IMG/VR virus record: IMGVR_UViG_3300028843_000060
Location: 1-22,668 of that record
Reading direction: 5' to 3' (one strand)
DNA: 22,668 bases
Origin: a virus
The stretch's first letter is position 1; the number at the start of each line of letters is the position of its first letter. The notes under the pieces were generated by a model. The model saw nothing but the letters and a program-made list of their open reading frames with translations. It ran no database searches and had not been told where the DNA came from. The translations under genes were made by a program, and so were the position numbers. This document shows positions 7,076 to 22,612 of this stretch, piece by piece.

Positions 7076-7303
7076 ATGGCAACAACTACTAATCTCGACC
7101 TAACTTACATTGAGACAGGTCAAAAAGATAAAAGCACAACAATCAACACCAACATGGATTTGATAGATGCTTTACCACAATACCTCGGTGAACTTGCTTC
7201 TGACCCTGCAATTGTTGGCGTGTCTTACGGTTCAACTTATTACAACACAGGTTCTTCTAAGCTTAAAGTTTTGAAGACTGATGACACATGGATTAATACA
7301 TAA
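7076..7303 (+). CDS. Small phage structural protein, unknown
   Basis: This 75-residue protein begins MATTTNLDLTYIETGQKDKS and ends with a GSTYYNTGSSKLKVLKTDDTW segment, a pattern often seen in small proteins placed next to phage tail fibres (N-terminal 'N-x-N-x-D-x-I-D' helix followed by 'YYNT..KLKV' strands). AAGGA about seven bases before the ATG is a clear ribosome binding site. The stop overlaps the following fibre gene by one base. A near match to the late promoter motif (AATAAATAC) lies 21 bases upstream. A role as fibre adaptor or head decoration is possible but not shown. Confidence 0.65.
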   Translation: MATTTNLDLTYIETGQKDKSTTINTNMDLIDALPQYLGELASDPAIVGVSYGSTYYNTGSSKLKVLKTDDTWINT

Positions 7304-8628
7304 TGGCTTTAGCAACGAACACAACAGAAGGTGACATAGCATTAGCTGGTGATTTGAATGGGAATGTAAATTCACCATCATTGACCACTACTGGTGTGGT
7401 TCCCAATACGTATGCGAACGCTAAGATTGTAGTGGATGCAAAGGGTAGAATTATCCATGCTGAAGCTATGAGTGATGCTGACCGTGATGCTTTAGTTGAT
7501 GAAGCCCTATCACCACCAAACACATTCCCCGATGCTACTAATTCATCTAAAGGTATTGCACAGGTGGACGACACTGAAACACTAACCATAAGTGTTGATA
7601 GTATTGTAGGGTTTGATGAAACTACACTAACACACTCTTCTTCCACACTCAAAGGAATACTTAGTGTTCCTTATGGGACAGGACTGGTAATGAACAACGG
7701 TGTTCTTTCTACAGACCATGAGACGATGTATGATACAGCAACTAATTCGTCCAAAGGTATTCTAAGAGTAAATCCTAATTATGGTTTAACGTTGAATAGT
7801 GGCGTTGTTGGGTTTGACACCACCCAATTAATAGATAGTGAAGTGTACAGGAAAGGCGTTGTCCAGATAGATGACACTAATGGATTAAGTATAACTGCTG
7901 GTGTGTTGGGTCTTGATACATCTACACTACCAGATGCAACATCAGCAGCTAAAGGTATTGTCCAAATAGATGACACTAATGGATTAAGTATAACTGCTGG
8001 TGTATTGAGTTTTGATACATCTACACTACCAGATGCAACATCAGCAGCTAAAGGCGTTGTCCAGATAGATGACACTAATGGATTAAGTATAACTGCTGGT
8101 GTGTTGGGTCTTGATACATTGTCCGATGCAACAACAACATCTAAAGGTGTGGTTCAAATAGATGATACTAATGGGTTGGCTATAACTGCTGGTGTATTGG
8201 GTGTATCTCCAGCCACAAACACAACTTTCGGTACAGTGAAGTCTACCGACATTAACAACATAACAATAACTGCTGGTGCTATAGATGTTGGTACAAACGT
8301 GATTCAGAAAGACCAGAATTATGGGGCGATAATCCAGTCAGAGAATACAAATTATACGACAACAAACACCTTAACCCCAGATTTTGAAAATTTTTCATTT
8401 TACGAAATTGATAACCCAGATTTCATAATAACGATTAATAACCCAACATCTATACCAACAAAGGGTATTGTGGTTGTTGTGAAAATCATTAATTCTAGTA
8501 TTTTATCTATGGATACGGATTACATTTCAAACAACATCAATGCTGTGTTGCTTGGTGTTAACATTTTACTATTAGAATCCACTGGGACAAAAATTAAAGC
8601 GTCCCTAATAACAGATTTTCCAACATAA
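7303..8628 (+). CDS. Repeat-containing tail fibre protein A
   Basis: 441 residues. The N-terminal part (MALATNTTEGDIALAGDLNGN ... TTGVVPNTYANAKIVVDAKGRI) is the widespread phage fibre motif 'AGDL-x-G ... G-x-Y ... VD-x-KGRI'. Residues about 76-333 are eight repeats of roughly 28-34 residues with core DATSAAKGIVQIDDTNGL and S/LITAGVL. The last repeat, SPATNTTFGTVKSTDINN, is nearly identical in DNA to the last repeat of the following gene. The C-terminal ~100 residues are unique and probably form the receptor-contacting tip. The start lies in a TAATG overlap. Fibre trimer assembly is inferred from family knowledge. Confidence 0.75.
   Translation: MALATNTTEGDIALAGDLNGNVNSPSLTTTGVVPNTYANAKIVVDAKGRIIHAEAMSDADRDALVDEALSPPNTFPDATNSSKGIAQVDDTETLTISVDSIVGFDETTLTHSSSTLKGILSVPYGTGLVMNNGVLSTDHETMYDTATNSSKGILRVNPNYGLTLNSGVVGFDTTQLIDSEVYRKGVVQIDDTNGLSITAGVLGLDTSTLPDATSAAKGIVQIDDTNGLSITAGVLSFDTSTLPDATSAAKGVVQIDDTNGLSITAGVLGLDTLSDATTTSKGVVQIDDTNGLAITAGVLGVSPATNTTFGTVKSTDINNITITAGAIDVGTNVIQKDQNYGAIIQSENTNYTTTNTLTPDFENFSFYEIDNPDFIITINNPTSIPTKGIVVVVKIINSSILSMDTDYISNNINAVLLGVNILLLESTGTKIKASLITDFPT
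7528..8302 (+). repeat. Tandem coding repeats in fibre A (8 units)
   Basis: Eight direct repeats of about 87-102 bases. The central units are nearly identical at DNA level, for example the stretch starting ACATCTACACTACCAGATGC occurs at about 7919 and again 99 bases later. The outer units have diverged. The pattern suggests expansion by recombination within the gene. Confidence 0.85.
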
Positions 8629-8637
8629 GGAACAAAA

Positions 8638-9978
8638 ATGGCTTTAGCAACAAATACCGCTACAGGTACAATAAAATTAGCTGGTGATTTAGCTGGCAAT
8701 AACGATGCAACCGCACCAGAATTAACATCCACTGGTGCCATCTCTGGTGAATACTACATACCTATCATAACCGTTGATGATAAAGGTAGGATAACTAACA
8801 TTGCTTCGACTGACTCGACAACCGTTATACCGTTTTTACCTGATGCAACTAATTCATCAAAAGGTATTGTTCAGATAGATGATACTAATGGATTAGTCAT
8901 AACTGCTGGGGTATTGAGCTTTGATACATCTACACTACCAGATGCAACATCAGGAGTTAAAGGTGTTGTCCAAATAGATGACACCAATGGATTAGTCATA
9001 ACTGCTGGCGTATTGAGCTTTGATAATTCGTTATTAGACCCTTTACCAGATGCAACATCAGGAGTTAAAGGTGTTGTTCAGATAGATGATACCAATGGAT
9101 TAGTCATAAGTGGTGGTCAATTATCATTTAACTTATCTGCCTCGTCAATACAAGATGCAACATCAGCAGCTAAAGGCGTTGTCCAGATAGATGATACCAA
9201 TGGATTAGTCATAAGTGGTGGGGTATTGAGCTTTGATACATCTACACTGCCAGACGCAACTAATACAACTAAAGGTATTGTCCAAATAGATGACACTAAT
9301 GGATTAGTCGTAACTGCTGGCGTGTTGAGCTTTGATACATCTACACTACCAGATGCAACATCAGCAGTCAAAGGTATTGTCCAGATAGATGATACCAATG
9401 GATTAGTCATAAGTGGTGGCGTGTTGAGCTTTGATACATCTACACTGCCAGACGCAACTAATACAACCAAAGGTGTGGTTCAAATAGATGATACTAATGG
9501 GCTTACGGTAGCTGCTGGAGTATTAGGTGTATCTCCAGCCACAAACACAACTTTCGGTACAGTGAAGTCTACCGACATTAACAACATAACAATAACTGCT
9601 GGTGCTATAGATGTTGGCACAAACGTAGCATTAAAAGACCAAGACAACGCTTTCACTAAAACCCAAAGTGTAGCGGTTAACACGTTAACTTATAGTGCGA
9701 ACATAACTCCTGATGGTGCAGTATCCAATGTTATGGAAGTTACTCTAACAGGTAATACGACATTAGAAAATCCGACCAATTTAATAGCTGGTGCATTCTA
9801 TAGTGTTCAGATAACACAAGATACCACAGGTTCAAGAACTATGGGTTACGGGACAGCGTTTAAGTTTAAAGGTGGGGTCACACCAACACTTTCTACAGCG
9901 GGTAATTCTATCGACATACTTACATGTATTTCTGATGGGACTAATTTGTATTCAACATTAACAAAGGATTTATCATAA
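8638..9978 (+). CDS. Repeat-containing tail fibre protein B (paralogue of A)
   Basis: 446 residues, clearly a duplicate of the preceding gene: same N-terminus (MALATNTATGTIKLAGDLAGN), same GRI motif, eight repeats of the DATxxxKGxVQIDDTNGL type, and the same closing repeat SPATNTTFGTVKSTDINN. The C-terminal domain from about residue 331 (SVAVNTLTYSANITPDGAVSN ...) is unrelated to that of fibre A, so the two genes share stalk and anchor but carry different tips. AAGGA before the ATG is a good ribosome binding site, nine bases after the stop of fibre A. The stop overlaps the next gene by one base. A pair with different tips may widen receptor range. Confidence 0.75.
   Translation: MALATNTATGTIKLAGDLAGNNDATAPELTSTGAISGEYYIPIITVDDKGRITNIASTDSTTVIPFLPDATNSSKGIVQIDDTNGLVITAGVLSFDTSTLPDATSGVKGVVQIDDTNGLVITAGVLSFDNSLLDPLPDATSGVKGVVQIDDTNGLVISGGQLSFNLSASSIQDATSAAKGVVQIDDTNGLVISGGVLSFDTSTLPDATNTTKGIVQIDDTNGLVVTAGVLSFDTSTLPDATSAVKGIVQIDDTNGLVISGGVLSFDTSTLPDATNTTKGVVQIDDTNGLTVAAGVLGVSPATNTTFGTVKSTDINNITITAGAIDVGTNVALKDQDNAFTKTQSVAVNTLTYSANITPDGAVSNVMEVTLTGNTTLENPTNLIAGAFYSVQITQDTTGSRTMGYGTAFKFKGGVTPTLSTAGNSIDILTCISDGTNLYSTLTKDLS
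8839..9627 (+). repeat. Tandem coding repeats in fibre B (8 units)
   Basis: Eight direct repeats of about 87-105 bases, homologous to those of fibre A; many units share stretches such as GTCCAGATAGATGATACCAA. The last unit (9526-9627) is almost identical in DNA to 8206-8302 of fibre A, which points to recent duplication or gene conversion between the two genes. Confidence 0.85.
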
Positions 9979-11087
9979 TGTTTTCACAATCAATGTTTTT
10001 CGAGGATGAATTGACCCAACAACCGCCTATAGGGACTTTAGTTTCTACTGGTGATAATGAGTTCGGTGAATTAGGGTTAGGTGATGTTGGCACCTACCTC
10101 GTGTGGACTCAGGTAGAAATGTTAGATTTCATTTCCATTAGTTGTGGATTTGAACACTCTATAGGTATCAAAACAGACGGCACTTTATGGTGTTGTGGTA
10201 TTTTAGAATACGGTGGTGCGGGAGGTGGGTATTCACACACCTTTATACAAATAGGAACCGACACAGATTGGGATAATGTGTCAACTTACGAATACTCCAC
10301 TATGGCTATCAAAACAGATGGCACTTTATGGGGTGCCGGACTAACACAAGATGGTGGTATAGGTGTACCACCGTATCCTGATTTTGGGACACAAAAAACC
10401 TTTTTACAAATAGGAACCGACACAGATTGGAGTGTTGTAGATGCTAATCATCATCGCGCTATGGCTATCAAAACAGATGGCACTTTGTGGGGTACAGGGC
10501 TGAACAATTACGGACAACTTGGACTGAACGACCTGATTGATAGACATGAATTCACTAAAATAGGAGCGGAAACTGATTGGGAGCAGATAAGCATCGGGAG
10601 TTTACACACGATAACCAAAAAAACAGATGGCACAATTTGGTCTTGTGGTAATAATTCAGCATTCCAGTTAGGGCAAAATAACAATACTAATCTTTCTATT
10701 CTCACTAAAATAGGAACCGACACAGATTGGGATAAGGTTGAGTGTGGTAACGCGCATAGTATTACCACGAAAACAGACGGTACTTTATGGACTTGCGGCT
10801 CAAACGATGGCGGTCAGTTAGCATTAGGCGACTTTAATACGAGAAGTGTTTTGGAGAAGGTGGGGATAGCCACAGATTGGGTTAAAATTTATGGTGGCTA
10901 TAGTTCTACTATAGTAATCAATAGCGGTGGAGGGTTGTACGTGGCTGGTGGTGATGGTTTTGGTCGGTTGGGTTTGGGTGGTGGGTCGAATTACAATAAT
11001 TTGGAAAAAATTGGTGATGATGATGATTTTTCCATAGCGTCTGCTGGTAGCGAACATAGTATGGCGATTAAAGGTTCGTTATTATAA
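9978..11087 (+). CDS. RCC1-like seven-bladed propeller protein, probable receptor-binding structural protein
   Basis: 369 residues. Seven copies of the RCC1 blade signature can be read: VSTGDNEFGELGLG, WCCGILEYGGAGGG, WGAGLTQDGGIGVP, WGTGLNNYGQLGLN, WSCGNNSAFQLGQN, WTCGSNDGGQLALG and YVAGGDGFGRLGLG, separated by IGTDTDW-D/S and xAIKTDGTLW segments. The protein ends HSMAIKGSLL, the strand needed to close the ring against the N-terminal LVSTGD, so the propeller looks complete. Repeat DNA is highly similar between blades (ATAGGAACCGACACAGATTGG-like stretch three times). No signal peptide is visible. It overlaps the fibre B stop by one base and is overlapped by the next gene, so it belongs to the fibre operon. 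The receptor-binding role is inferred. Confidence 0.78.
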   Translation: MFSQSMFFEDELTQQPPIGTLVSTGDNEFGELGLGDVGTYLVWTQVEMLDFISISCGFEHSIGIKTDGTLWCCGILEYGGAGGGYSHTFIQIGTDTDWDNVSTYEYSTMAIKTDGTLWGAGLTQDGGIGVPPYPDFGTQKTFLQIGTDTDWSVVDANHHRAMAIKTDGTLWGTGLNNYGQLGLNDLIDRHEFTKIGAETDWEQISIGSLHTITKKTDGTIWSCGNNSAFQLGQNNNTNLSILTKIGTDTDWDKVECGNAHSITTKTDGTLWTCGSNDGGQLALGDFNTRSVLEKVGIATDWVKIYGGYSSTIVINSGGGLYVAGGDGFGRLGLGGGSNYNNLEKIGDDDDFSIASAGSEHSMAIKGSLL

Positions 11088-11646: not shown

Positions 11647-11665
11647 AATTAAACAGTGTTTAATT
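11647..11665. repeat. Palindrome AATTAAAC-N3-GTTTAATT, copy 1
   Basis: Perfect 8-base arms around AGT. The first of four near-identical copies in the window. This copy has no T-run after it and lies about 87 bases before a sigma70-type -35 box, so an operator or other protein-binding role is more likely than a terminator. Confidence 0.7.
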
Positions 11666-11724
11666 TATAACTTACAACAACTTACACGGTATCAGCGTTC
11701 TCGTAGCGGCAAACTGGTACCAGC

Positions 11725-11743
11725 AATTAAACAACGTTTAATT
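11725..11743. repeat. Palindrome AATTAAAC-N3-GTTTAATT, copy 2
   Basis: Perfect 8-base arms around AAC, followed by TATTTTTCTT and then, eight bases on, the -35 box at 11752. The position suits an operator upstream of the promoter or an AT-rich terminator for the fibre operon. The same arrangement recurs at 12203-12221. Confidence 0.7.
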
Positions 11744-11751
11744 TATTTTTC

Positions 11752-11802
11752 TTGACATTCCAATAATAGGTGTTATACTTAACACTCTTATTATTTTTGG
11801 AG
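11752..11802 (+). promoter_or_regulatory. Sigma70-type promoter and shared leader, unit 1
   Basis: TTGACA at 11752-11757, a 16-base spacer, and TATACT at 11774-11779. The leader contains TTTTTGGAGATTTA, with GGAG at 11799-11802, seven bases before the ATG at 11810. From 11771 to 11807 the sequence is identical to 14241-14277, so promoter and leader were copied as a block. Confidence 0.82.
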
Positions 11803-11809
11803 ATTTATT

Positions 11810-12208
11810 ATGAAAGTTATTACTTTCACGTTACTATTAATTACATCAACCCTCACTTTTGCTGCTCCTACTAAGATAGCCACTATCTGTAATCAGCTTC
11901 AACATGCTACGGAATTACAAATAGAAGCATTCAATGACACTAATGCGAATAAAATGGTGGTCGGTGATTCTGCTTTTGTTATGAATACATTTAAGTCTGG
12001 TGATGATTACCTTATTGGGTTAGTCACTGGTGATGAATCATGTCATAACATGTTGGTTGGATTAATCACACCAAACAAATCATTTGCTGTTAGTTTAAGT
12101 AAAGCTGATGAAGTTAAATTTGAAGGCACATTATTGAAAGTGCTTTTGATGGAAGGTAAATTTGTGATGATTTACATCAAAGCTTCTAAACAAACCTTAG
12201 TAAATTAA
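11810..12208 (+). CDS. Exported small protein, unknown (accessory gene)
   Basis: 132 residues. The N-terminus MKVITFTLLLITSTLTFA followed by AP is a clear Sec signal peptide with probable cleavage after TFA, giving a mature protein of about 114 residues in the periplasm or outside. Two cysteines, C27 and C78, could form a disulfide. The rest is mixed strand/helix without a motif I know. It has its own strong promoter and ribosome binding site and no structural neighbours, so it is a typical phage accessory gene possibly expressed early or in lysogeny; exported accessory proteins of this kind often change the host surface or block superinfection, but that is only a possibility. The stop lies inside the palindrome at 12203. 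Confidence 0.72.
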   Translation: MKVITFTLLLITSTLTFAAPTKIATICNQLQHATELQIEAFNDTNANKMVVGDSAFVMNTFKSGDDYLIGLVTGDESCHNMLVGLITPNKSFAVSLSKADEVKFEGTLLKVLLMEGKFVMIYIKASKQTLVN

Positions 12209-12221
12209 ACGTTGTTTAATT
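12203..12221. repeat. Palindrome AATTAAAC-N3-GTTTAATT, copy 3
   Basis: Arms extend to nine bases (AAATTAAAC / GTTTAATTT, 12202-12222) around GTT, followed by ATTTTTCTT. Because its centre is GTT, the core is the exact reverse complement of copies 2 and 4. It contains the TAA stop of the exported-protein gene and lies eight bases before the -35 box at 12230, so it could act as operator, weak terminator or both. Confidence 0.72.
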
Positions 12222-12229
12222 TATTTTTC

Positions 12230-12287
12230 TTGACATTCCAAAAATTTAGTATAAACTCTTAAGTTCTTATTAAATTTTTGGAGATTT
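12230..12287 (+). promoter_or_regulatory. Sigma70-type promoter and shared leader, unit 2
   Basis: TTGACA at 12230-12235, 16-base spacer, TAAACT at 12252-12257 (the weakest -10 of the four units). The leader contains TTTTTGGAGATTTACA with GGAG seven bases before the ATG at 12291. The -35 and its flanks (TATTTTTCTTGACATTCCA) are the same as in unit 1. Confidence 0.7.
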
Positions 12288-12290
12288 ACA

Positions 12291-12359
12291 ATGTTAGTTA
12301 CATTCGATAAACTTAGTGATGTCATTAATGACCAACTGATTGAACGTGGTATCACATAA
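12291..12359 (+). CDS. 22-residue leader peptide
   Basis: An ATG-started frame of 22 codons (MLVTFDKLSDVINDQLIERG plus IT) placed at the optimal distance from the shared leader's GGAG. Its TAA overlaps the ATG of the next gene by one base (TAATG), and that next gene has no separate ribosome binding site. The short peptide therefore probably serves to bring ribosomes to the 87-residue gene, or is itself a microprotein; an amphipathic helix is plausible. Confidence 0.6.
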   Translation: MLVTFDKLSDVINDQLIERGIT

Positions 12360-12622
12360 TGGTGGAACATTACAACAAAAAATACTTTTGCCCGATAACC
12401 ATTGAAGATGTGGATTCGGTTAAGATTAACCGTAACCTTGTTAAGATGACGTTTTTATGGTCAAGAACCAACACGGGTGAGCTTGGGACAGATGAACTAT
12501 TAATCAATACTTCTATTGTCCCAAACAGACCTATAATTGAACCTGAAGTTGATGAAGATGTTATGTGGTCAATTTTCGAATGGTTCGATGCTAACCGACA
12601 GGTGAACTTTCTTTCTTTTTAG
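12359..12622 (+). CDS. Small protein, unknown, coupled to the leader peptide
   Basis: 87 residues (MVEHYNKKYFCPITIEDVDS ... VMWSIFEWFDANRQVNFLSF). Predicted strands in the first half, an acidic segment (IIEPEVDEDVMW) and an aromatic C-terminus. No motif is recognised. Translation is likely to depend on the 22-codon frame in front of it. The last 32 bases overlap, tail to tail, with the end of the leftward holin-like gene, so the two operons converge here and may interfere with each other. Function unknown. Confidence 0.6.
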   Translation: MVEHYNKKYFCPITIEDVDSVKINRNLVKMTFLWSRTNTGELGTDELLINTSIVPNRPIIEPEVDEDVMWSIFEWFDANRQVNFLSF

Positions 12623-12827
12623 ACATTATTTTATTAATGCTTCTATTACCTATCACGGTTACACAGAATAAAGTCCAAAGATTAGCATCAATGGGCTGCT
12701 GTGTAACCGTGTGATAGATAAACGCTGCACACAACATAAGATAACCCAAAACACTAAAAGCCTTAGTGTGACTTATCGTGTTGGTTTTCTGGTCTACAAA
12801 AATAAAATTAGTTAATACTTTTAACAT
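12591..12827 (-). CDS. Small membrane protein, possible holin (DUF2644-like)
   Basis: 78 residues. The N-terminal part (VLTNFIFVDQKTNTISHTKAF) precedes one clear membrane helix (FSVLGYLMLCAAFIYHTVT, about residues 24-42) and a second hydrophobic segment (ANLWTLFCVTVIG, about 48-60), ending in a basic tail KIMSKKKES. Size, helix layout and position after an endolysin fit a phage holin or a DUF2644-like membrane protein. The start lies four bases after the stop of the preceding leftward gene, with GGGA as a weak ribosome binding site. Holin function is inferred from topology and neighbourhood only. Confidence 0.6.
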   Translation of the reverse strand: MLKVLTNFIFVDQKTNTISHTKAFSVLGYLMLCAAFIYHTVTQQPIDANLWTLFCVTVIGNRSINKIMSKKKESSPVG

Positions 12828-12831
12828 AATG

Positions 12832-13053
12832 TTAGTCCCATTTAATGTAAGCTAAAATCTTTTTATCATCACCTTTCCTGGTGGTGTAGTTAGCCATTGT
12901 CATCATACCAGTGTGACCATGATCATCATCAAAACTTTCTTCTGTAAACCCACTGAGCAAGTTACCTTTCTTAGCCCAAATAGGTTTACCATCACTTCGT
13001 AAATTATCGTTAGCTGTAGGCACGTCTTGTCCACCCATTCCGGTATTTTGCAT
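12832..13053 (-). CDS. Unknown protein in the lysis cassette
   Basis: Up to 73 residues (MQNTGMGGQDVPTANDNLRS ...), ending MTMANYTTRKGDDKKILAYI plus KWD. The first ATG lies inside the end of the endolysin gene (44-base overlap) and has no clear ribosome binding site; the ATG at residue 6 (13038) is an equal candidate. No signal peptide or membrane helix, so it is not a spanin. A His/Asp cluster (DDDHGHTG) could bind metal. It sits between endolysin and holin-like gene, so it is co-expressed with them. Function unknown. Confidence 0.5.
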   Translation of the reverse strand: MQNTGMGGQDVPTANDNLRSDGKPIWAKKGNLLSGFTEESFDDDHGHTGMMTMANYTTRKGDDKKILAYIKWD

Positions 13054-13507
13054 AAGCTGGTTTGTTACGAATCAATCCTTCATAAAAAGCAAACTGTTCA
13101 TCTTTATACTGTTCTAAGATGCAGCCAGCATTTTCAGAATTGGTCATACCGATAGTCTGATTACCAATTAACCCATCAATCACACAATCAAGACCCATAG
13201 CAACTAAAGACTTCTGAAGAAGCTTCACGGCTCTACGATGACCACAATTTACAGCGGTATCAAAGACTTTAGCTGATAAAGCTTTATTGTTTATTTCATT
13301 ATAGTGACCTTTCATCCAATACTCAGTGTAATAAATTTCAATTGCTCGGTCAACAGTCATGTTTCTGATGTCTTCTGCTGGGTGAGCACGTTTACTAATA
13401 CCAAAATTTGTTTCTCCACCTGCATCCACCTTATCCCACACGTATCCACCTTCATTGACCAAAACTTTCTGAACTGCTGAATTAAAATTTTCACTGTATT
13501 GTCTCAT
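13010..13507 (-). CDS. Endolysin, GH108 N-acetylmuramidase type
   Basis: 165 residues from the ATG at 13507. It contains the GH108 signature EGGY (E19, the likely catalytic acid) followed by VDAGGETNFGISKRAHP, then EYWMKG and SAKVFDTAVNCGHRRAVKLLQ, and a short C-terminal peptidoglycan-binding part (DGLIGNQTIG ... YRNGWTRRA). Such enzymes cleave the glycan backbone of peptidoglycan and release the phage. No signal peptide is seen, so it should need a holin. A GTG at 13519 would add four residues (MIYY), but AAGAG would then abut the start; ATG 13507 is preferred. It is transcribed leftward against the flanking genes, with both a sigma70-like and a TATAAATA promoter candidate upstream. Confidence 0.85.
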   Translation of the reverse strand: MRQYSENFNSAVQKVLVNEGGYVWDKVDAGGETNFGISKRAHPAEDIRNMTVDRAIEIYYTEYWMKGHYNEINNKALSAKVFDTAVNCGHRRAVKLLQKSLVAMGLDCVIDGLIGNQTIGMTNSENAGCILEQYKDEQFAFYEGLIRNKPAYAKYRNGWTRRAYS

Positions 13508-13564
13508 GTAGTAAATCACTCTTATTGTGTTGTGTCATTATTAGCTTATTAAGTTATTCTAATC

Positions 13565-13572
13565 TATTTATA
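13565..13572 (-). promoter_or_regulatory. T4-type late promoter candidate for the lysis genes
   Basis: Minus-strand TATAAATA (followed by GATTAG), 57 bases before the endolysin ATG. It is the only exact minus-strand TATAAATA I found and it lies directly ahead of the one leftward operon, whose products are needed late. Confidence 0.55.
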
Positions 13573-13620: not shown

Positions 13621-13657
13621 ATGTGGTAGACTGGTGTTTCTTTATTAAATTTTGGAG
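13605..13657 (+). promoter_or_regulatory. Sigma70-type promoter and shared leader, unit 3
   Basis: TTGACA 13605-13610, 16-base spacer, TAGACT 13627-13632, leader TTTTGGAGATTTACAAG with GGAG at 13654-13657, nine bases before the ATG at 13667. The -35 box is inside the palindrome at 13603. Confidence 0.75.
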
Positions 13658-13666
13658 ATTTACAAG

Positions 13667-14218
13667 ATGTTGAAGTTCGAACATAAATTAAGAATCAAGA
13701 CCAACCCAAGAATCAATGAAGCTATTAAAGCTTTAGAAGTCGGCTGCGCTATTTTACAGAAGGATAAGGGTATTGGCTCATTTACATTTAGAGTGTCCAC
13801 CAATGCTGGTTATAGTTCTAGAAAGGGCGGGTATTGTGATAGTGACAAGGATGGTAATGTTACGGTGACTATCAATTTATCAACCATTCTAATGTGTGGT
13901 AGCAATTTTAATAGCATTCTTAAAACGTTGGGTCATGAATTACGACACGCTTTACAATTCAACATGCGTTGGCTCGAATACGATAACCATAAATGGCATG
14001 GGGTAAAGTATAAGCGCATAGGTAATGCTCAAGCCATTAAAGATTACTATAAAGGTAAAGAGTCTTTATGTTATTACAGTAACACGGCTTATTACAATAG
14101 ACCATGCGAACAAGATGCACGTAAATTCGAAAACAGATACCGCAACACTATTAAGAATCATCCAGACTTCGCACCGTATAAACACCTTTTACGTAAAGGT
14201 AAAACTTATTTTAAATAA
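13667..14218 (+). CDS. Putative zinc metallopeptidase (HExxH) accessory protein
   Basis: 183 residues. HELRH at 90-94 preceded by a hydrophobic segment (NSILKTLG) is the HExxH zinc site, and CEQDARKFE at 147-155 gives E148 as the likely third ligand, the arrangement of small gluzincin-like peptidases. No signal peptide, so it would act in the cytoplasm. Lys/Arg content is high. The ATG at 13667 is chosen over an in-frame TTG at 13652 because that TTG overlaps the GGAG itself. It has its own promoter and palindrome. It may process a host or phage regulator, but no target is indicated; HExxH-containing ImmA-like proteins differ in having an attached HTH, which is not seen here. Confidence 0.7.
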   Translation: MLKFEHKLRIKTNPRINEAIKALEVGCAILQKDKGIGSFTFRVSTNAGYSSRKGGYCDSDKDGNVTVTINLSTILMCGSNFNSILKTLGHELRHALQFNMRWLEYDNHKWHGVKYKRIGNAQAIKDYYKGKESLCYYSNTAYYNRPCEQDARKFENRYRNTIKNHPDFAPYKHLLRKGKTYFK

Positions 14219-14237: not shown

Positions 14238-14273
14238 ACCTGTTATACTTAACACTCTTATTATTTTTGGAGA
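14222..14273 (+). promoter_or_regulatory. Sigma70-type promoter and shared leader, unit 4
   Basis: TTGACA 14222-14227, 16-base spacer, TATACT 14244-14249, then the block 14241-14277 identical to unit 1, with GGAG eight bases before the ATG at 14281. It starts immediately after the preceding gene. Confidence 0.82.
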
Positions 14274-14280
14274 TTTACAA

Positions 14281-15627: not shown

Positions 15628-15635
15628 TATAAATA
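15628..15635 (+). promoter_or_regulatory. T4-type late promoter candidate
   Basis: TATAAATACAG in the only gap between these genes, 30 bases before the ATG of the GIY-YIG-like gene. The flanking AATC before it is also found at 19395. Confidence 0.6.
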
Positions 15636-15665: not shown

Positions 15666-16058
15666 ATGGAATCACATTGGCAAATAGATGAAGTCGCTGA
15701 AAATGCAGTGGGCTTTGTCTACGTCATCATTAACAAGCTTAACAAAAAAACGTACATTGGTAAGAAATTCTATTATTCTACTATACGTAAGAAGCCTTTA
15801 AAGGGCAAAAAACGTACCCGTGTGATAACTAAAGAATCGAATTGGCGTACGTATTGTTCGTCTAGCGATTACGTCAAAGCTGACATTAAAAAATACGGTA
15901 AAGAAAACTTCACCTTTAAAATCATAAAATCTTATGATAATAAAACTAAAGTAAATTATGCAGAATTGGAATTACTGGTAAAAAATGATGTGCTTGATGG
16001 TTCAGATAAGTGGTACAACGGAAACATCTTAGGTAAGTATTTCAATGGACAAGTATAA
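15666..16058 (+). CDS. GIY-YIG endonuclease, SegE-like
   Basis: 130 residues. GFVYVIINKLNKKTYIGKKF (residues 17-36) is the GIY-YIG core in the altered form seen in SegE-type phage endonucleases; the arginine in SNWRTYCSSS and the glutamate in NYAELELL fit the catalytic Arg and Glu. It lacks the DNA-binding modules of larger homing endonucleases, so it is a free-standing nuclease, which may act as a homing endonuclease or in genome competition. It follows a TATAAATACA motif, with a weak AAAAGA ribosome binding site. Its stop overlaps the next start by one base. Confidence 0.75.
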   Translation: MESHWQIDEVAENAVGFVYVIINKLNKKTYIGKKFYYSTIRKKPLKGKKRTRVITKESNWRTYCSSSDYVKADIKKYGKENFTFKIIKSYDNKTKVNYAELELLVKNDVLDGSDKWYNGNILGKYFNGQV

Positions 16059-16469: not shown

Positions 16470-16659
16470 AGAAGAAGTAATAGATACACTAATTATGTTG
16501 GTAGTGTGGGGTAAGCAGACTAATGATGAAGAAATGGTTATGCTATGCACACGCAAGATAGCCAGATTATCTGGTTCAACTAACATAGATGCACTAATTA
16601 AGGAATGGGAATCCAGAAGTAAACCAAAACGCAAAGGAACTGCTAAGAATGGCACGTAA
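16456..16659 (+). CDS. Small helical protein upstream of the sigma factor gene
   Basis: 67 residues, mostly helix (SKEEVIDTLIMLVVWGKQTN ... ARLSGSTNIDALIKEWES) with a basic tail KPKRKGTAKNGT. It overlaps the genes on both sides, including 11 bases with the sigma factor gene, so translation is coupled. In T4, late transcription also needs the small coactivator gp33; a small partner next to the gp55-like gene is worth noting, but I see no sequence resemblance that would name it. Confidence 0.6.
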   Translation: MVTSKEEVIDTLIMLVVWGKQTNDEEMVMLCTRKIARLSGSTNIDALIKEWESRSKPKRKGTAKNGT

Positions 16660-17053
16660 GAAGAATTATCTCAATAACAGGGATTTGGTAGACGAAACAA
16701 TTATCAGTCAACAGCAAGGACGTATGACCGATAAATTAGCAAGGATGCTGATGGTTCTATGTGAACGTTATAAGAAATCATCCCAAGGAGATTTTACCCG
16801 CTACACCTATTTTGATGAAATGAAGTCTACAGCAATGGAAAACTTAGTCAAAACAGCTTACAAAAAATTCGATTCAGAAAGATTCAGCAACGCATTCGCA
16901 TTCTACACCCAATGTATTCATAACTCATACCTTCAATACCTCAACTATGAAAAACGTCATAGACGTATACGTGATGCTCTTATTGTAGACTTTGGTTTGA
17001 ATCCATCAGATTCATTTATGGAAGAGTATAGGGAAAAACTTGACATTGGTTAA
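16649..17053 (+). CDS. T4 gp55-like late transcription sigma factor
   Basis: 134 residues. The layout agrees with T4 gp55 and its relatives: KKNYLNNRDLVDETI at the N-terminus (T4: YNYVNNKELLQAI), LARMLMVLCERYKKS, then FTRYTYFDEMKSTAMENLVK, KKFDSERFSNAFAFYTQCIH and NSYLQYLNYEKRHRRIRDAL, which corresponds to the region-2 core (T4: ...[24 protein letters not shown]). It is shorter than T4 gp55 (185) and lacks the C-terminal tail that binds the sliding clamp. It would direct host RNA polymerase to TATAAATA promoters, and five TATAAATACA motifs are present in this window. It ends a run of overlapping small genes; its stop lies next to the palindrome at 17052. Confidence 0.85.
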   Translation: MARKKNYLNNRDLVDETIISQQQGRMTDKLARMLMVLCERYKKSSQGDFTRYTYFDEMKSTAMENLVKTAYKKFDSERFSNAFAFYTQCIHNSYLQYLNYEKRHRRIRDALIVDFGLNPSDSFMEEYREKLDIG

Positions 17054-17070
17054 TTAAACAACGTTTAATT
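17052..17070. repeat. Palindrome AATTAAAC-N3-GTTTAATT, copy 4
   Basis: Perfect 8-base arms around AAC, overlapping the last two bases of the sigma factor stop codon, as copy 3 overlaps a stop codon. A half-copy (AATTAAAC-ATC-GTTA) lies at 18475-18489 directly before the gene at 18503. The 17071-17163 stretch that follows shows no strong promoter. Confidence 0.7.
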
Positions 17071-17163
17071 TAAACTTCTTGCTATTTTCCAGACCCAGTG
17101 ATAAATTAAAAAGGTGTTAGCAATCGCTGGCATGAATTTTAACCAAAATGAACGGGGTTCATA

Positions 17164-17873
17164 ATGGAATTAGTTACATTGAGCGACACTCAGAAAATGT
17201 CATCCCTCGAAATCGCAGAATTATGTGGTAAACGTCACAATGACGTTACCCGCGACATCAGAAAAATACTCAAAGAAGCTGGTATTGAAGGTGCGCAATT
17301 TTGCGCACCTTGGAAATTACCTTCAGGTCAAACATCTACAATTTACCAAGACGTGAATGTGATTTGGTAGTAAGCGGGTATTCAGTACCTTATCGTCTTA
17401 AAATTATCGATAGGTGGCAAGAGCTTGAACGCTCTGGGTCACTACCAGACTTCACCAATCCTGCTATAGCGGCAAGAGCATGGGCTGACGCTGTTGAAGG
17501 GTTACAAAACGCTGAACAATCCAATCTGCTACTACGGGTGGAAATAACTGAAGATTTACCATTAACAGATTTAGGACGTGCTGTTATTAAGTCCGATACC
17601 ACTGTTACGGTAGAAGAATTCGCAAAGCTTATGGGTATCAAAGGTTTTGGTCGTAACAAGATGTTCAACTTCTTACGTCAACAGTTTATCTTAATGAACA
17701 CAGCAACATCACAACCCTATCAGAAGTATCTTGATGCTGGTTGGTTTAAGCTTGCTGTTAAAGATTCTGAACATCGTACAAGCAACCAGACATTAATCAC
17801 AGGTAAGGGCATCAGCAAGCTTAGAATGGTGTTAGCTGAATTCTATCCAGAAGTAGTGAATCTGGTTACCTAA
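17164..17873 (+). pseudogene. Rha/Ant-type antirepressor, interrupted by a frameshift
   Basis: The first frame (17164-17370) gives MELVTLSDTQKMSSLEIAEL followed by CGKRHNDVTRDIRKILKEAG, the Rha N-terminal domain, up to SGQTSTIY. The protein then continues in another frame (open to 17873) as IYNLPRRECDLVVSGYSVPY, RLKIIDRWQELERSGSLPDF, and a C-terminal ANT-like DNA-binding domain (EEFAKLMGIKGFGRNKMFNF ... DAGWFKLAVKD). Joining the two parts gives a normal antirepressor of about 235 residues, with a change of -1 or +2 near 17337-17346. No classical slippery heptamer is seen there. A perfect hairpin is located just upstream (17289-17312). It may be a mutated gene, a sequencing error or programmed frameshifting. 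GGGG six to eight bases before the ATG serves as ribosome binding site. Confidence 0.75.
17289..17312 (+). repeat. Perfect hairpin inside the antirepressor gene
   Basis: AAGGTGCGCAA (17289-17299) and TTGCGCACCTT (17302-17312) form an 11-base inverted repeat with two bases between, or a 10-base stem with a four-base loop in RNA. It ends about 30 bases before the apparent frameshift. Confidence 0.8.
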
Positions 17874-17896
17874 TCGATAGGCAATAGAACACTCAG

Positions 17897-17936
17897 AGAG
17901 TCGTATGTGATAACTATACATTAACGGCTCTTTTTC
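17897..17936 (+). terminator. Intrinsic terminator after the antirepressor gene
   Basis: AGAGTCGT (17897-17904) pairs with ACGGCTCT (17924-17931), one U-G pair, with an inner ATGT/ACAT pairing and a run of T at 17931-17935. It lies 23 bases after the antirepressor stop. Confidence 0.75.
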
Positions 17937-17978
17937 CTTATGCTCTTAATGATTAAGATTTTAAAGGTATAGGATTTA

Positions 17979-18005
17979 TAATTGATTTAAGATTAATTGA
18001 TTTAA
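17979..18005 (+). repeat. 12-base direct repeat pair
   Basis: TAATTGATTTAA occurs at 17979-17990 and at 17994-18005, separated by GAT, giving a 15-base period. It could be a pair of protein-binding sites such as terminase or replication initiator sites. Confidence 0.7.
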
Positions 18006-18342
18006 AAAGAAGTATACTTTATCAGTTATGCTTTCAAGGTATGTTAATCCTACTGTAGCACCACAGTTATCAGCTAAGTTATAGCTGTAAATAATCACGT
18101 TTATCTGTTTATGATGTAGTTCAATCTACACAAGGGACGACTCTCAAACCCCTTACACTTCTTAGTTTGTTATTTACTCGTTGAAGCAATCAGTTAACCA
18201 CATGTTTCGAGTTGTTTGTTATGGCAACAGGTAATTAATCCGTTCCAGTGTTGGTAGTCAAAATGCAAGCACTACATCGTTAAAGGTTGCTTCTTTGGAG
18301 TCATAGCTCAACAAGTTAAATAACGTTATACTTATAGTTTCT

Positions 18343-18350
18343 TATAAATA
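18343..18350 (+). promoter_or_regulatory. T4-type late promoter candidate for the small terminase unit
   Basis: TATAAATACAA in non-coding sequence 152 bases before the GTG at 18503. A transcript from here would carry the 18409-18464 hairpin in its leader and end at the terminator at 19343-19380. Confidence 0.55.
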
Positions 18351-18408
18351 CAAGATTAGTATGTTACCAATTACTTATAAAACAGTAAAGCACTTTCAAT
18401 AAAATAAA

Positions 18409-18464
18409 TTGTTGGTGATTTAAGGTGTGTTTAAGCTTCAATAACTTAAAACCTACACCAACAT
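18409..18464 (+). repeat. Long imperfect hairpin before the terminase operon
   Basis: TGTTGGTG at 18410 pairs with CACCAACA at 18456-18463, and an inner AGGT...TTTAAG pairs with CTTAAAACCT, around the loop CTTCAATAA. No T-run follows, so a structured leader or DNA-level recognition site is more likely than a terminator. Confidence 0.6.
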
Positions 18465-18502
18465 ACCATAAATTAATTAAACATCGTTAGGAGTTAAATT
18501 TA

Positions 18503-18814
18503 GTGGATAGATACACGTTAAGGAACAAGTATGTAATGTGTCGTTTGTTTCAGGAGCAACTTACACGAACTGAATACCCAAAAAAACGTAGATTTGGTTG
18601 GTCTATAGAACTTACTGAAAAGCAACACCAATACATTATAAGGAAATACAGATTACATGATAAACATTACCGTCAAGTTATTTTAATAAATTACGAGCTT
18701 CATTTACTTAGAATCTTCGATAAACCATGTTTATTCATTTCAGGTATTTACAAGCCAGAATCCTTTTTAGAGATAAAAGATAAATACGTACAAGAATTAA
18801 AACAAATAACATGA
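18503..18814 (+). CDS. Small basic unknown protein
   Basis: 103 residues (MDRYTLRNKYVMCRLFQEQL ...), rich in Arg, Lys and Tyr, with mostly helical pattern and a strand pair near FDKPCLFISGIYKPESF. The start is GTG, supported by GGAG nine bases upstream. It overlaps the small terminase frame by an ATGA junction if the upstream ATG at 18811 is used. DNA binding is possible from its charge, but no motif is recognised. Because it directly precedes the terminase genes, a role in packaging is conceivable. Confidence 0.6.
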   Translation: MDRYTLRNKYVMCRLFQEQLTRTEYPKKRRFGWSIELTEKQHQYIIRKYRLHDKHYRQVILINYELHLLRIFDKPCLFISGIYKPESFLEIKDKYVQELKQIT

Positions 18815-18834
18815 ATTTTATCAGGGATAACAAC

Positions 18835-19239
18835 ATGGCAACATCAAAGCACTATCAACCTAATCCAAAGAAAAACTTAACAGACAAAGAACGTAAACAA
18901 ATCGAAACTATGGCTGAAATGGGATTACGACCTGCTCACATGGGAGCAATCTTAGGATTCACCAAACAATACTTTTACAAGCTTATACAACGTGATGACG
19001 CTACAAGATTAGCGTATGAACGTGGTAAAGCCAATGGAACTATGACCGCTGTTAAATACTTAGTAGATAACATGAAGGAAGGTTCCGAAAAATCATTACA
19101 TTTTTGGCTTAAATTTATGGGTGGTTATAATCAAGATGACGATTTTGAAACTTGGGAACAACTTGAAGCAGAAAGATTACGGGAAAAAGAACAAACCAAC
19201 GACTTACCATCAGGTTTCAAATTAGAACTTATAAGTTGA
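18835..19239 (+). CDS. Probable terminase small subunit
   Basis: 134 residues from the ATG at 18835. Residues about 14-55 (NLTDKERKQIETMAEMGLRP ... AILGFTKQYFYKLIQRD) form a helix-turn-helix of the kind found in small terminases, followed by a helical oligomerisation-like part (TMTAVKYLVDNMKEGSEKSL, HFWLKFMGGYNQDDDFE) and a charged tail. AGGG eight bases before ATG 18835 supports this start; an in-frame ATG at 18811 overlaps the previous stop (ATGA) and would add eight residues. The small subunit recognises the packaging site and loads the large subunit, whose gene lies 760 bases on. Family assignment is by pattern and context. Confidence 0.7.
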   Translation: MATSKHYQPNPKKNLTDKERKQIETMAEMGLRPAHMGAILGFTKQYFYKLIQRDDATRLAYERGKANGTMTAVKYLVDNMKEGSEKSLHFWLKFMGGYNQDDDFETWEQLEAERLREKEQTNDLPSGFKLELIS

Positions 19240-19253
19240 CAACATTAGCAAAG

Positions 19254-19380
19254 TATAATACACTAACCATGTATTTTAAATTAGCGTTCATGATGGAAAT
19301 AAAAAGAACCCAAAAGTAAATCTCCAAAGTTTATAAAGGGTAAGAGGGTATCACCGTTTAGGTTTTACCCTCTTTTTTTT
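19254..19380 (+). ncRNA. Candidate small RNA or 3'UTR with anti-leader sequence
   Basis: A TATAAT at 19254-19259 (no good -35 at normal spacing; TTGACA is only 12 bases upstream) could start an RNA near 19266, ending at the terminator at 19380, about 115 bases. Positions 19316-19328 read GTAAATCTCCAAA, the exact complement of TTTGGAGATTTAC, the ribosome binding region of units 2, 3 and 4 (12 of 13 in unit 1). With unit 3 the pairing extends to 18 bases with one G-U. The RNA could also be the 3' end of the terminase mRNA. On the minus strand the same bases look like a decayed copy of the leader, which is the rival explanation. Confidence 0.4.
19343..19380 (+). terminator. Strong intrinsic terminator
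   Basis: AGAGGGTA (19343-19350) pairs perfectly with TACCCTCT (19366-19373), with an inner ACC/GGT pairing, followed by a run of eight T to 19380. It separates the small terminase unit from the unit that starts at the late promoter candidate 19399. Confidence 0.88.
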
Positions 19381-19398
19381 GTCTGTCATAAACCAATC

Positions 19399-19406
19399 TA
19401 TAAATA
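19399..19406 (+). promoter_or_regulatory. T4-type late promoter candidate for the terminase/portal unit
   Basis: TATAAATACAT, 28 bases before the ATG at 19435 and 19 bases after a strong terminator. The context AATCTATAAATACA is the same as at 15625-15637. Downstream genes are packaging and head genes, which are expected to be late. Confidence 0.65.
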
Positions 19407-19434
19407 CATTTTTAAAAATAGATGGATAAAATTA

Positions 19435-19713
19435 ATGAAGTATCGCAAAAACCCAGTCGAAATTGACGCATTGGAATGGGATGGGACAAACCATGCTCTG
19501 ATGTATAGATTCTTAGAAGATGATAATGGCTACTTAACTACAGAAGGTAAAAACTTCTACATAGACCATAAACGCATAGTCGGAGGTTTAATCATTAGAA
19601 CCTTAGAAGGTGAACACGTTGCCACTATAGGTGATTTCATCATAAAAGGTGTAGATGGTGAATTTTACCCATGTAAACCAACAATCTTTAATAAAACTTA
19701 CACTAGATGTTAA
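19435..19713 (+). CDS. Conserved small phage protein (GDFIIKGVDGEFYPCKP type)
   Basis: 92 residues. The beginning (MKYRKNPVEIDALEWDGTN) and the end (GDFIIKGVDGEFYPCKPTIF plus NKTY) follow a pattern found in many phage genomes ('YRKKPV.IEA..W.G' ... 'GDWIIKGV.GEFYPCKPDIF'), a family without known function that often occurs near terminase or replication genes. The protein looks like a small strand-rich fold. It is the first gene of the late unit behind 19399. The stop overlaps the next start by seven bases. Confidence 0.75.
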   Translation: MKYRKNPVEIDALEWDGTNHALMYRFLEDDNGYLTTEGKNFYIDHKRIVGGLIIRTLEGEHVATIGDFIIKGVDGEFYPCKPTIFNKTYTRC

Positions 19714-20006
19714 TAGACTTCGATACATTCAACTGTCGTGACACTGATCCATTCAAATACGATAAAATTTGTAAAATACAAGAACACAATAATCCAAAAC
19801 GACCTAAATTTTTTTACACACCATCTTCAGCAACACATAACATTATGCAAATAGCTATGGTTTATGGGATTACAGAAGATCAAGTTTTTAAACTATGTTC
19901 GCACAAAAATAAACCAGTATCTAAGATTGCTGTCAAAAAGTATTACTTCTTAAAAGAAAAATGGATAGGTAGAACTTATAGAGAAATAGGGTTTGATAGT
20001 GATTAA
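19707..20006 (+). CDS. Small putative DNA-binding protein
   Basis: 99 residues (MLIDFDTFNCRDTDPFKYDK ...). The segment IMQIAMVYGITEDQVFKLCS reads as a helix-turn-helix, and VKKYYFLKEKWIGRTYREIG resembles short DNA-contact modules seen next to phage homing endonucleases. Basic overall. It overlaps both neighbours and ends inside the large terminase start. Function uncertain. Confidence 0.55.
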   Translation: MLIDFDTFNCRDTDPFKYDKICKIQEHNNPKRPKFFYTPSSATHNIMQIAMVYGITEDQVFKLCSHKNKPVSKIAVKKYYFLKEKWIGRTYREIGFDSD

Positions 20007-21289: not shown

Positions 21290-22612
21290 ATGCCTATAAA
21301 TTCAGAACACCCAACGTATAACATTAGTAGAGCTATCGAAACTGAAGATGCTTATAATGAAAACGTTAAGCAAGAAAAATACGTAGCAAAATTAGCAGAC
21401 CAAACGACCGCAAAATACAATCAATACTTAGACCGTGGAATTTACTTCAATGTAACATCACGAACAACATCAGCAATTATTGGGACAGTATTAAGAAAAG
21501 ACCCCATTACAGATGATTCTTTTCAAACAGTAGATGAATTATCAGAAAGAGAATTATTATCTGATTTATTGAAAGGTTTATTACTTCGTGGTAAAGCTGG
21601 TATACATACCGATTTTGATGAAGAAGCTAATAGTGCAGTAATGATACCTATCAATGGTAATAACATTGTCAACTGGCGTGATGATGGCACATTGGTAGTA
21701 TTGAAAGAGGGATACTATGTTGAAGATAAAGACGACAAGTATAAGCTTATAGCAAAAACAAGATACCGCGAACTGTTCTTAGATGAAGGAACTTACACAG
21801 TTCAATTGTGGGAACAAGAAGGTGGTATCAACAGCTATAAATTTGTCAAGGTTGGGGAACCAATGGTACCAACAGTAAAAGGTATCCCATTAGATTACAT
21901 TCCATTTGAATTCATTAATCCATTTGATACAACAAGTGATACTTATTCGCCTGTTCTATTTAACTTAGCACAGATTAACGTATCACACTTTAGAACATCT
22001 GTAGACTTAGAACACATTGCACATTTTTCAGCATTACCACAACCTTGGATTGCTGGGGATTTTCAAAGTTCAGGTGATGCAGATGAACAACCCGTTAAAG
22101 TTTTAATAGGTTCAGACCAAGTATGGCATTTGGCACCAGAATCAAAAGTTGGTTATTTGGAATTCTCTGGTATTGCTATTGATAGTGTTGCTGACATTTT
22201 AAGACATAAAGAAGAACAGATGTTAGCTGTTGGTATTAGATTACTAAGCAATAAGAATGCTGTCGAATCTGCTGAAACCATCAAGATTCGTTCTAATACT
22301 GAAAATGCTACATTGTTATCAATGACATTAAGTATTGAAAGTGCGGTTCAAAATTCATTAGAAACTGTTAACCTTTGGAACGGTGTTGCAGAAGAACCAT
22401 TATTCTCAATGAGTAAAGACTTCGTACCTGCACAGATAGCACCAGAAGAAATTACAGTTCAATTACAACTATTGAACGAAGGTAAGATTTCACAAGAAAC
22501 GTTCTTAGAAAATCTAAGTGCTGGTGAGATAATCCCATCAGTTGAAGAAGAAGTTGACCGTTTAAATTCTACTACTGTGGAAGGTCAGAACGTTGATAAC
22601 TTAGATTTATAA
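21290..22612 (+). CDS. Portal protein, DUF4055 family
   Basis: 440 residues. The N-terminal part (NEN-V-K ... EKYVAKLADQTTAKYNQYLD, RGIYFNVTSRTTSAIIGTVL, RKDP) is the typical DUF4055 opening, followed by LLKGLLLRGKAGIHTDFDEE, the conserved WRDDGTL region and FRTSVDLEHIAHFSALPQPW. DUF4055 proteins are encoded directly after the large terminase and are taken to be portals. The C-terminal part (EEITVQLQLLNEGKISQETF) is a helical stalk-like region. It starts one base after terL, with CAGGA upstream. The C-terminus is acidic. Portal function is from family knowledge and gene order. Confidence 0.85.
   Translation: MPINSEHPTYNISRAIETEDAYNENVKQEKYVAKLADQTTAKYNQYLDRGIYFNVTSRTTSAIIGTVLRKDPITDDSFQTVDELSERELLSDLLKGLLLRGKAGIHTDFDEEANSAVMIPINGNNIVNWRDDGTLVVLKEGYYVEDKDDKYKLIAKTRYRELFLDEGTYTVQLWEQEGGINSYKFVKVGEPMVPTVKGIPLDYIPFEFINPFDTTSDTYSPVLFNLAQINVSHFRTSVDLEHIAHFSALPQPWIAGDFQSSGDADEQPVKVLIGSDQVWHLAPESKVGYLEFSGIAIDSVADILRHKEEQMLAVGIRLLSNKNAVESAETIKIRSNTENATLLSMTLSIESAVQNSLETVNLWNGVAEEPLFSMSKDFVPAQIAPEEITVQLQLLNEGKISQETFLENLSAGEIIPSVEEEVDRLNSTTVEGQNVDNLDL

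Follow-up and report, generated by a model that had tools for sequence, protein, structure and literature searches.

Does the gap in front of the terminase operon of this phage encode a small RNA that acts in trans on a group of distant genes? The window, i.e., the whole stretch of DNA analyzed here, is a 22.7-kb IMG/VR virus fragment, and the question is raised by a 13-nt sequence, GTAAATCTCCAAA (19316-19328, + strand). As an earlier note on this DNA had pointed out, it is the exact reverse complement of the ribosome-binding leader of three genes and matches that of a fourth at 12 of 13 positions. It is located in a 195-bp gap, within about 145 bp of which it is enclosed by a promoter and a terminator. 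On one side of the gap is an ORF (18811-19239), the product of which has a weak PHROG similarity to a DNA-binding protein and is probably the small terminase, judged by its position. On the other side is the terminase operon, with its first ORF at 19435, terL at 19993 and portal at 21290.

The 13-nt complement and its predicted target leaders

The complement and the four leader copies are as follows.

19316..19328, + strand: exact 13-nt complement of the common leader at the ribosome binding site (sequence match)
11796..11808, + strand: target leader 1 (12/13), before ATG 11810 of a 132-aa protein with a signal-peptide-like N-terminus
12277..12289, + strand: target leader 2 (exact), before ATG 12291 of a 22-aa ORF
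13651..13663, + strand: target leader 3 (exact), before ATG 13667 of a 183-aa SprT-like protein with an HExxH-type motif
14266..14278, + strand: target leader 4 (exact), before ATG 14281 of a 154-aa unknown protein

All four copies lie directly 5' of these ATGs, and the stop codon of the 22-aa ORF overlaps the start of an 87-aa ORF at 12359. When up to two mismatches are allowed, no further complement site is found in the window beyond the four leaders (0.93 expected by shuffling). The contiguous pairing of 18 bp with one G-U pair reported for the leader at 13667 is real, and extra pairs follow past a 1-nt bulge. This bulged pairing of 23 bp is not significant once the core is fixed, and pairing past the 13-nt core is no better than that of shuffled flanks (p = 0.35 summed over the targets; 0.10 for 13667).

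RNA-RNA interaction prediction, which had been proposed as a check, ranks the four leaders first to fourth among 31 start regions, with predicted co-folding gains between -14.4 and -17.8, whereas the other start regions average -6.3 (sd 1.8). When the hairpin arm that carries the complement is compared with 8960 40-nt tiles from both strands, the leaders rank 1, 2, 3 and 5, the 5th being tied at -22.0. Such complementarity to the translation starts of distantly encoded targets is what is expected of a trans-acting phage small RNA. A second target via the 5' arm of the RNA, the start of gene 14796, appeared strong in one duplex run but only about 11th in the whole-window scan, and it was not retained.

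A minus-strand cassette (12591-13519) encoding a GH108 endolysin and a small membrane protein is situated among the leader genes, and a minus-strand motif, TATAAATAG, is found at 13565 (- strand) 5' of the endolysin gene. The region 7303-9978 (+ strand) contains two adjacent ORFs with many internal repeats of about 99 nt, probably of tail-fibre type, followed by an RCC1-repeat protein at 9978-11087. Operator-like palindromes of 21 bp, AATTAAACAACGTTTAATTTA, are present at 11725-11745, 12201-12221 and 17052-17072, with a variant at 11647-11667. They precede the anti-repressor gene as well as early-type promoters and are probably binding sites of a repressor. The anti-repressor gene (Ant/KilAC) is split into two overlapping frames, 17164-17370 and 17301-17873 (+ strand), which match consecutive parts of one PHROG profile, suggesting a frameshift, a sequencing error or a programmed shift.

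A putative promoter-RNA-terminator unit

The elements around the complement are listed below.

19236..19264, + strand: sigma-70-type promoter TTGACA-17-TACACT of the putative small RNA (consensus match)
19271..19381, + strand: putative small RNA of about 110 nt, ends predicted; two hairpins, fold z-score -2.6
19308..19341, + strand: hairpin with the anti-Shine-Dalgarno CUCCAAA in its loop; -6 kcal/mol, loop residues 66-100% unpaired
19342..19380, + strand: intrinsic terminator with a 9-bp closing stem, an apical 3-bp stem and T8; -18 kcal/mol, z -4.8

These matches support the compact unit of promoter, RNA and terminator that the earlier note had envisaged, with the anti-Shine-Dalgarno predicted in an exposed hairpin loop, while several of its details are changed. 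The TATAAT at 19254 is present, but it is just 12 nt from the TTGACA at 19236, and TACACT (19259-19264), 17 nt away, is the better -10. The terminator is indeed downstream of the complement, although not with T8 at a distance of 15 bases: its stem begins at 19342, 13 nt past the core, and T8 begins at 19373. The predicted length of the RNA is revised from about 115 to about 110 nt (19271 to about 19381). In the window, the terminator is the strongest hairpin preceding a run of at least 6 T.

A promoter and an intrinsic terminator of its own in an intergenic region, recognized here only as sequence matches, are characteristic of a trans-acting phage small RNA. The UUUGGAG of the leaders pairs with the CUCCAAA loop, and in this respect the loop is complementary to the ribosome binding site as in C4 RNA. 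Two features count against the small-RNA reading: TACACT matches only 4 of 6 positions of the -10 consensus, and about half of the 13-nt core is within the hairpin stem. Neither an Rfam family nor a tRNA was found in the window. A small peptide is unlikely to be translated from the RNA, because the first ATG (19269) is at or before the predicted start and the other ATGs have no visible Shine-Dalgarno sequence.

Promoter classes and timing of expression

An exact TTGACA followed at 16-18 nt by an acceptable -10 is found five times in the window, always on the + strand and never on the - strand (2.8 expected by shuffling, both strands), and these five promoters are those of the four leader genes and of the putative small-RNA unit. 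The ORF at 16649-17053 (+ strand) encodes a T4 gp55-like late sigma factor (E about 1e-20 to PHROG late sigma families; E 6e-4 to T4 gp55 in PDB), and the T4-late-type motif TATAAATACA has five copies on the + strand, at 15628, 18343, 19399, 21105 and 22608, and none on the - strand (0.26 expected, both strands). The gp55-like factor and these motifs define a separate late promoter class. Two of the motifs flank the element.

18343..18352, + strand: TATAAATACA 5' of ORFs 18503 and 18811; possible start of a late transcript sharing the terminator at 19373
19399..19408, + strand: TATAAATACA of the terminase operon, a T4-late-type promoter motif directly past the terminator

The putative RNA is most likely, like its targets, a member of the early class transcribed by host RNA polymerase, because its promoter type is common to the four targets and the late class is separate, with one copy of its motif past the terminator. 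The earlier proposal, which ties synthesis of the RNA to transcription of the terminase unit, therefore finds no support, since the promoter is of host type and the terminase operon lies beyond the terminator with its own TATAAATACA at 19399. The accompanying timing, late expression silencing early genes, is revised accordingly and could be kept only if a late transcript from 18343 ran as far as the same terminator.

The motif at 18343 is within a stretch of about 630 bp (17874-18502) without any ORF of at least 60 aa, and the one at 15628 is ahead of a gene for a SegE-like GIY-YIG homing endonuclease (15666-16058, + strand). The terminase and portal of this phage, which has a gp55-like late sigma factor and T4-late-type motifs, match siphovirus-type families.

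Comparison with known antisense RNAs and search for relatives

There are some phage RNAs with which the putative RNA can be compared. C4 antisense RNA of P1 and P7 has loops that complement the ribosome binding site and block translation of a phage gene, ant (PMC5320573, PMC12197685). It folds into three stems and matures from a longer transcript (PMC5320573). The sar RNA of P22 is a small phage antisense RNA, which pairs with ant mRNA and blocks translation initiation (PMC12197685). VpdS of VP882 and PreS of lambda are phage-encoded trans-acting small RNAs favouring phage replication; both work with Hfq, with VpdS acting on mRNAs of host and phage alike and PreS targeting host dnaN (PMC12197685). 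Like C4, the putative RNA has a loop complementary to the ribosome binding site and a predicted block of translation. On the other hand, C4 is released from its precursor by RNase P, whereas the putative RNA would be transcribed independently from a promoter of its own, end at its own terminator and act on four separate genes. It matches no Rfam family, and the C4 covariance model has no match in the window among hits up to E = 5; it is not a member of the C4 family. It resembles sar as a predicted small phage antisense RNA blocking translation initiation. While sar is encoded opposite its single target, the element here is 5-7.5 kb distant from its four predicted targets. Unlike VpdS and PreS, it has as predicted targets a set of phage genes under one leader.

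Megablast against phage records detected no relatives of the window. Searches of IMG/VR with the terL, portal and tail proteins found no relative covering the element region among the matches listed, where the best terL relative is 44% identical in the alignment. The leader and its complement are absent from all 85 terL-region loci listed (831 kb). Searches of GTDB genomes with terL and with the SprT-like protein likewise gave no relative. Pattern scans of IMG/VR for the leader, the promoter-leader and the antisense with a T run gave no matching promoter-leader set or antisense unit among the matches listed, which are Shine-Dalgarno sites or in coding sequence contexts. The sole close relative found, L345, is 81% identical in a protein and 84% identical in DNA, but it stops at window position about 5947 and so does not reach the element. 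L345 has a TATAAATACA (L345:2367) 5' of a predicted tail gene.

Alternative explanations

The window has 56 pairs of exact inverted matches of at least 12 nt, most of them inside genes; lengths of 12-16 nt are frequent. Such matches are thus common, and the 13-nt match counts solely through its location. This abundance favours a reading in which the 13-mer arose by chance or is all that can still be recognized of an inverted leader copy. Promoter and terminator would then have ordinary roles, namely to end the transcript from upstream and to shield the late terminase operon. The flank complementarity at the shuffled level is in line with this, as are the approximately 2.8 exact-TTGACA promoter-like sites expected by chance, and a terminator separating the 18811 gene from the late promoter would be sensible by itself. 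However, the match hits the single element common to four ribosome binding sites, between a promoter and the strongest terminator of its kind, with the anti-Shine-Dalgarno in the loop. A complement of at least 13 nt to any leader that spans GGAG arose only 8 times when the 195-bp gap was shuffled 20,000 times, and the exact 13-mer did not occur in 200 shuffles of the window. The decayed inverted copy, already considered in the earlier note, is kept here as one form of this reading, but similarity to the leaders is undetectable outside the core. Since the identity there is at background (14-17/40 upstream vs 11-15 for unrelated cassettes) and the minus strand is without promoter or start codon at the leader position, nothing points to an inverted copy of greater extent. 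Coincidence or relic is nevertheless a possibility of considerable weight.

The antisense sequence might instead be produced mainly as a 3'-UTR-type small RNA, the 3' end of a late transcript from TATAAATACA at 18343 over the 18503 and 18811 genes, in which case late transcription would silence the four early genes and the timing first suggested would be preserved. The gp55-like late sigma factor and the over-represented, exclusively + strand motif, with one copy at 18343, are consistent with such a transcript, and no terminator was found between 18343 and 19373. We regard this origin as unlikely, however: with a host-type promoter right in front of it, the RNA need not be processed from a long mRNA, and no processing site is known. 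It is very improbable that the element is a cis-acting leader or attenuator, by which a terminase operon started at 19236 is regulated through read-through of the terminator. Promoter, hairpin and terminator do lie ahead of the 19435 ORF and point the same way, but a separate late motif lies past the terminator, the predicted folds revealed no alternative pairing as an antiterminator, and the complement to the leaders at the ribosome binding sites would be left unexplained.

Proposed mechanism and significance

The best explanation, to which we assign a probability of about 0.45, is that 19236-19381 is the gene for a trans-acting, C4/sar-like antisense RNA on the common leader. According to this model, host RNA polymerase would transcribe from about 19271 to the T8 terminator, and the resulting RNA of about 110 nt would not be translated. 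The whole 13-nt complement of the 5' leader of the four genes would lie in the first of its hairpins, with CUCCAAA exposed in the loop. After contact of the loop with the Shine-Dalgarno sequence, the A/U stem would open to form a duplex of 12-14 bp over the Shine-Dalgarno sequence of each mRNA, and binding of the 30S subunit would presumably be blocked. As the putative RNA and its targets have the same promoter class, the early regulon might be under a built-in brake or a delayed shut-off in trans.

The phage antisense RNAs that have been reviewed mostly hit one phage gene (C4, sar, OOP) or host networks. Here, one copied promoter-leader cassette might, tentatively, put a set of phage early genes under a phage small RNA, and any gene gaining the cassette would join the set. 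If true, early expression could be timed in a simple, modular manner by a single RNA against a leader common to several phage genes. It would also provide a search recipe for other phages: a repeated leader at ribosome binding sites, the reverse complement of which also occurs, enclosed by a promoter and a terminator.
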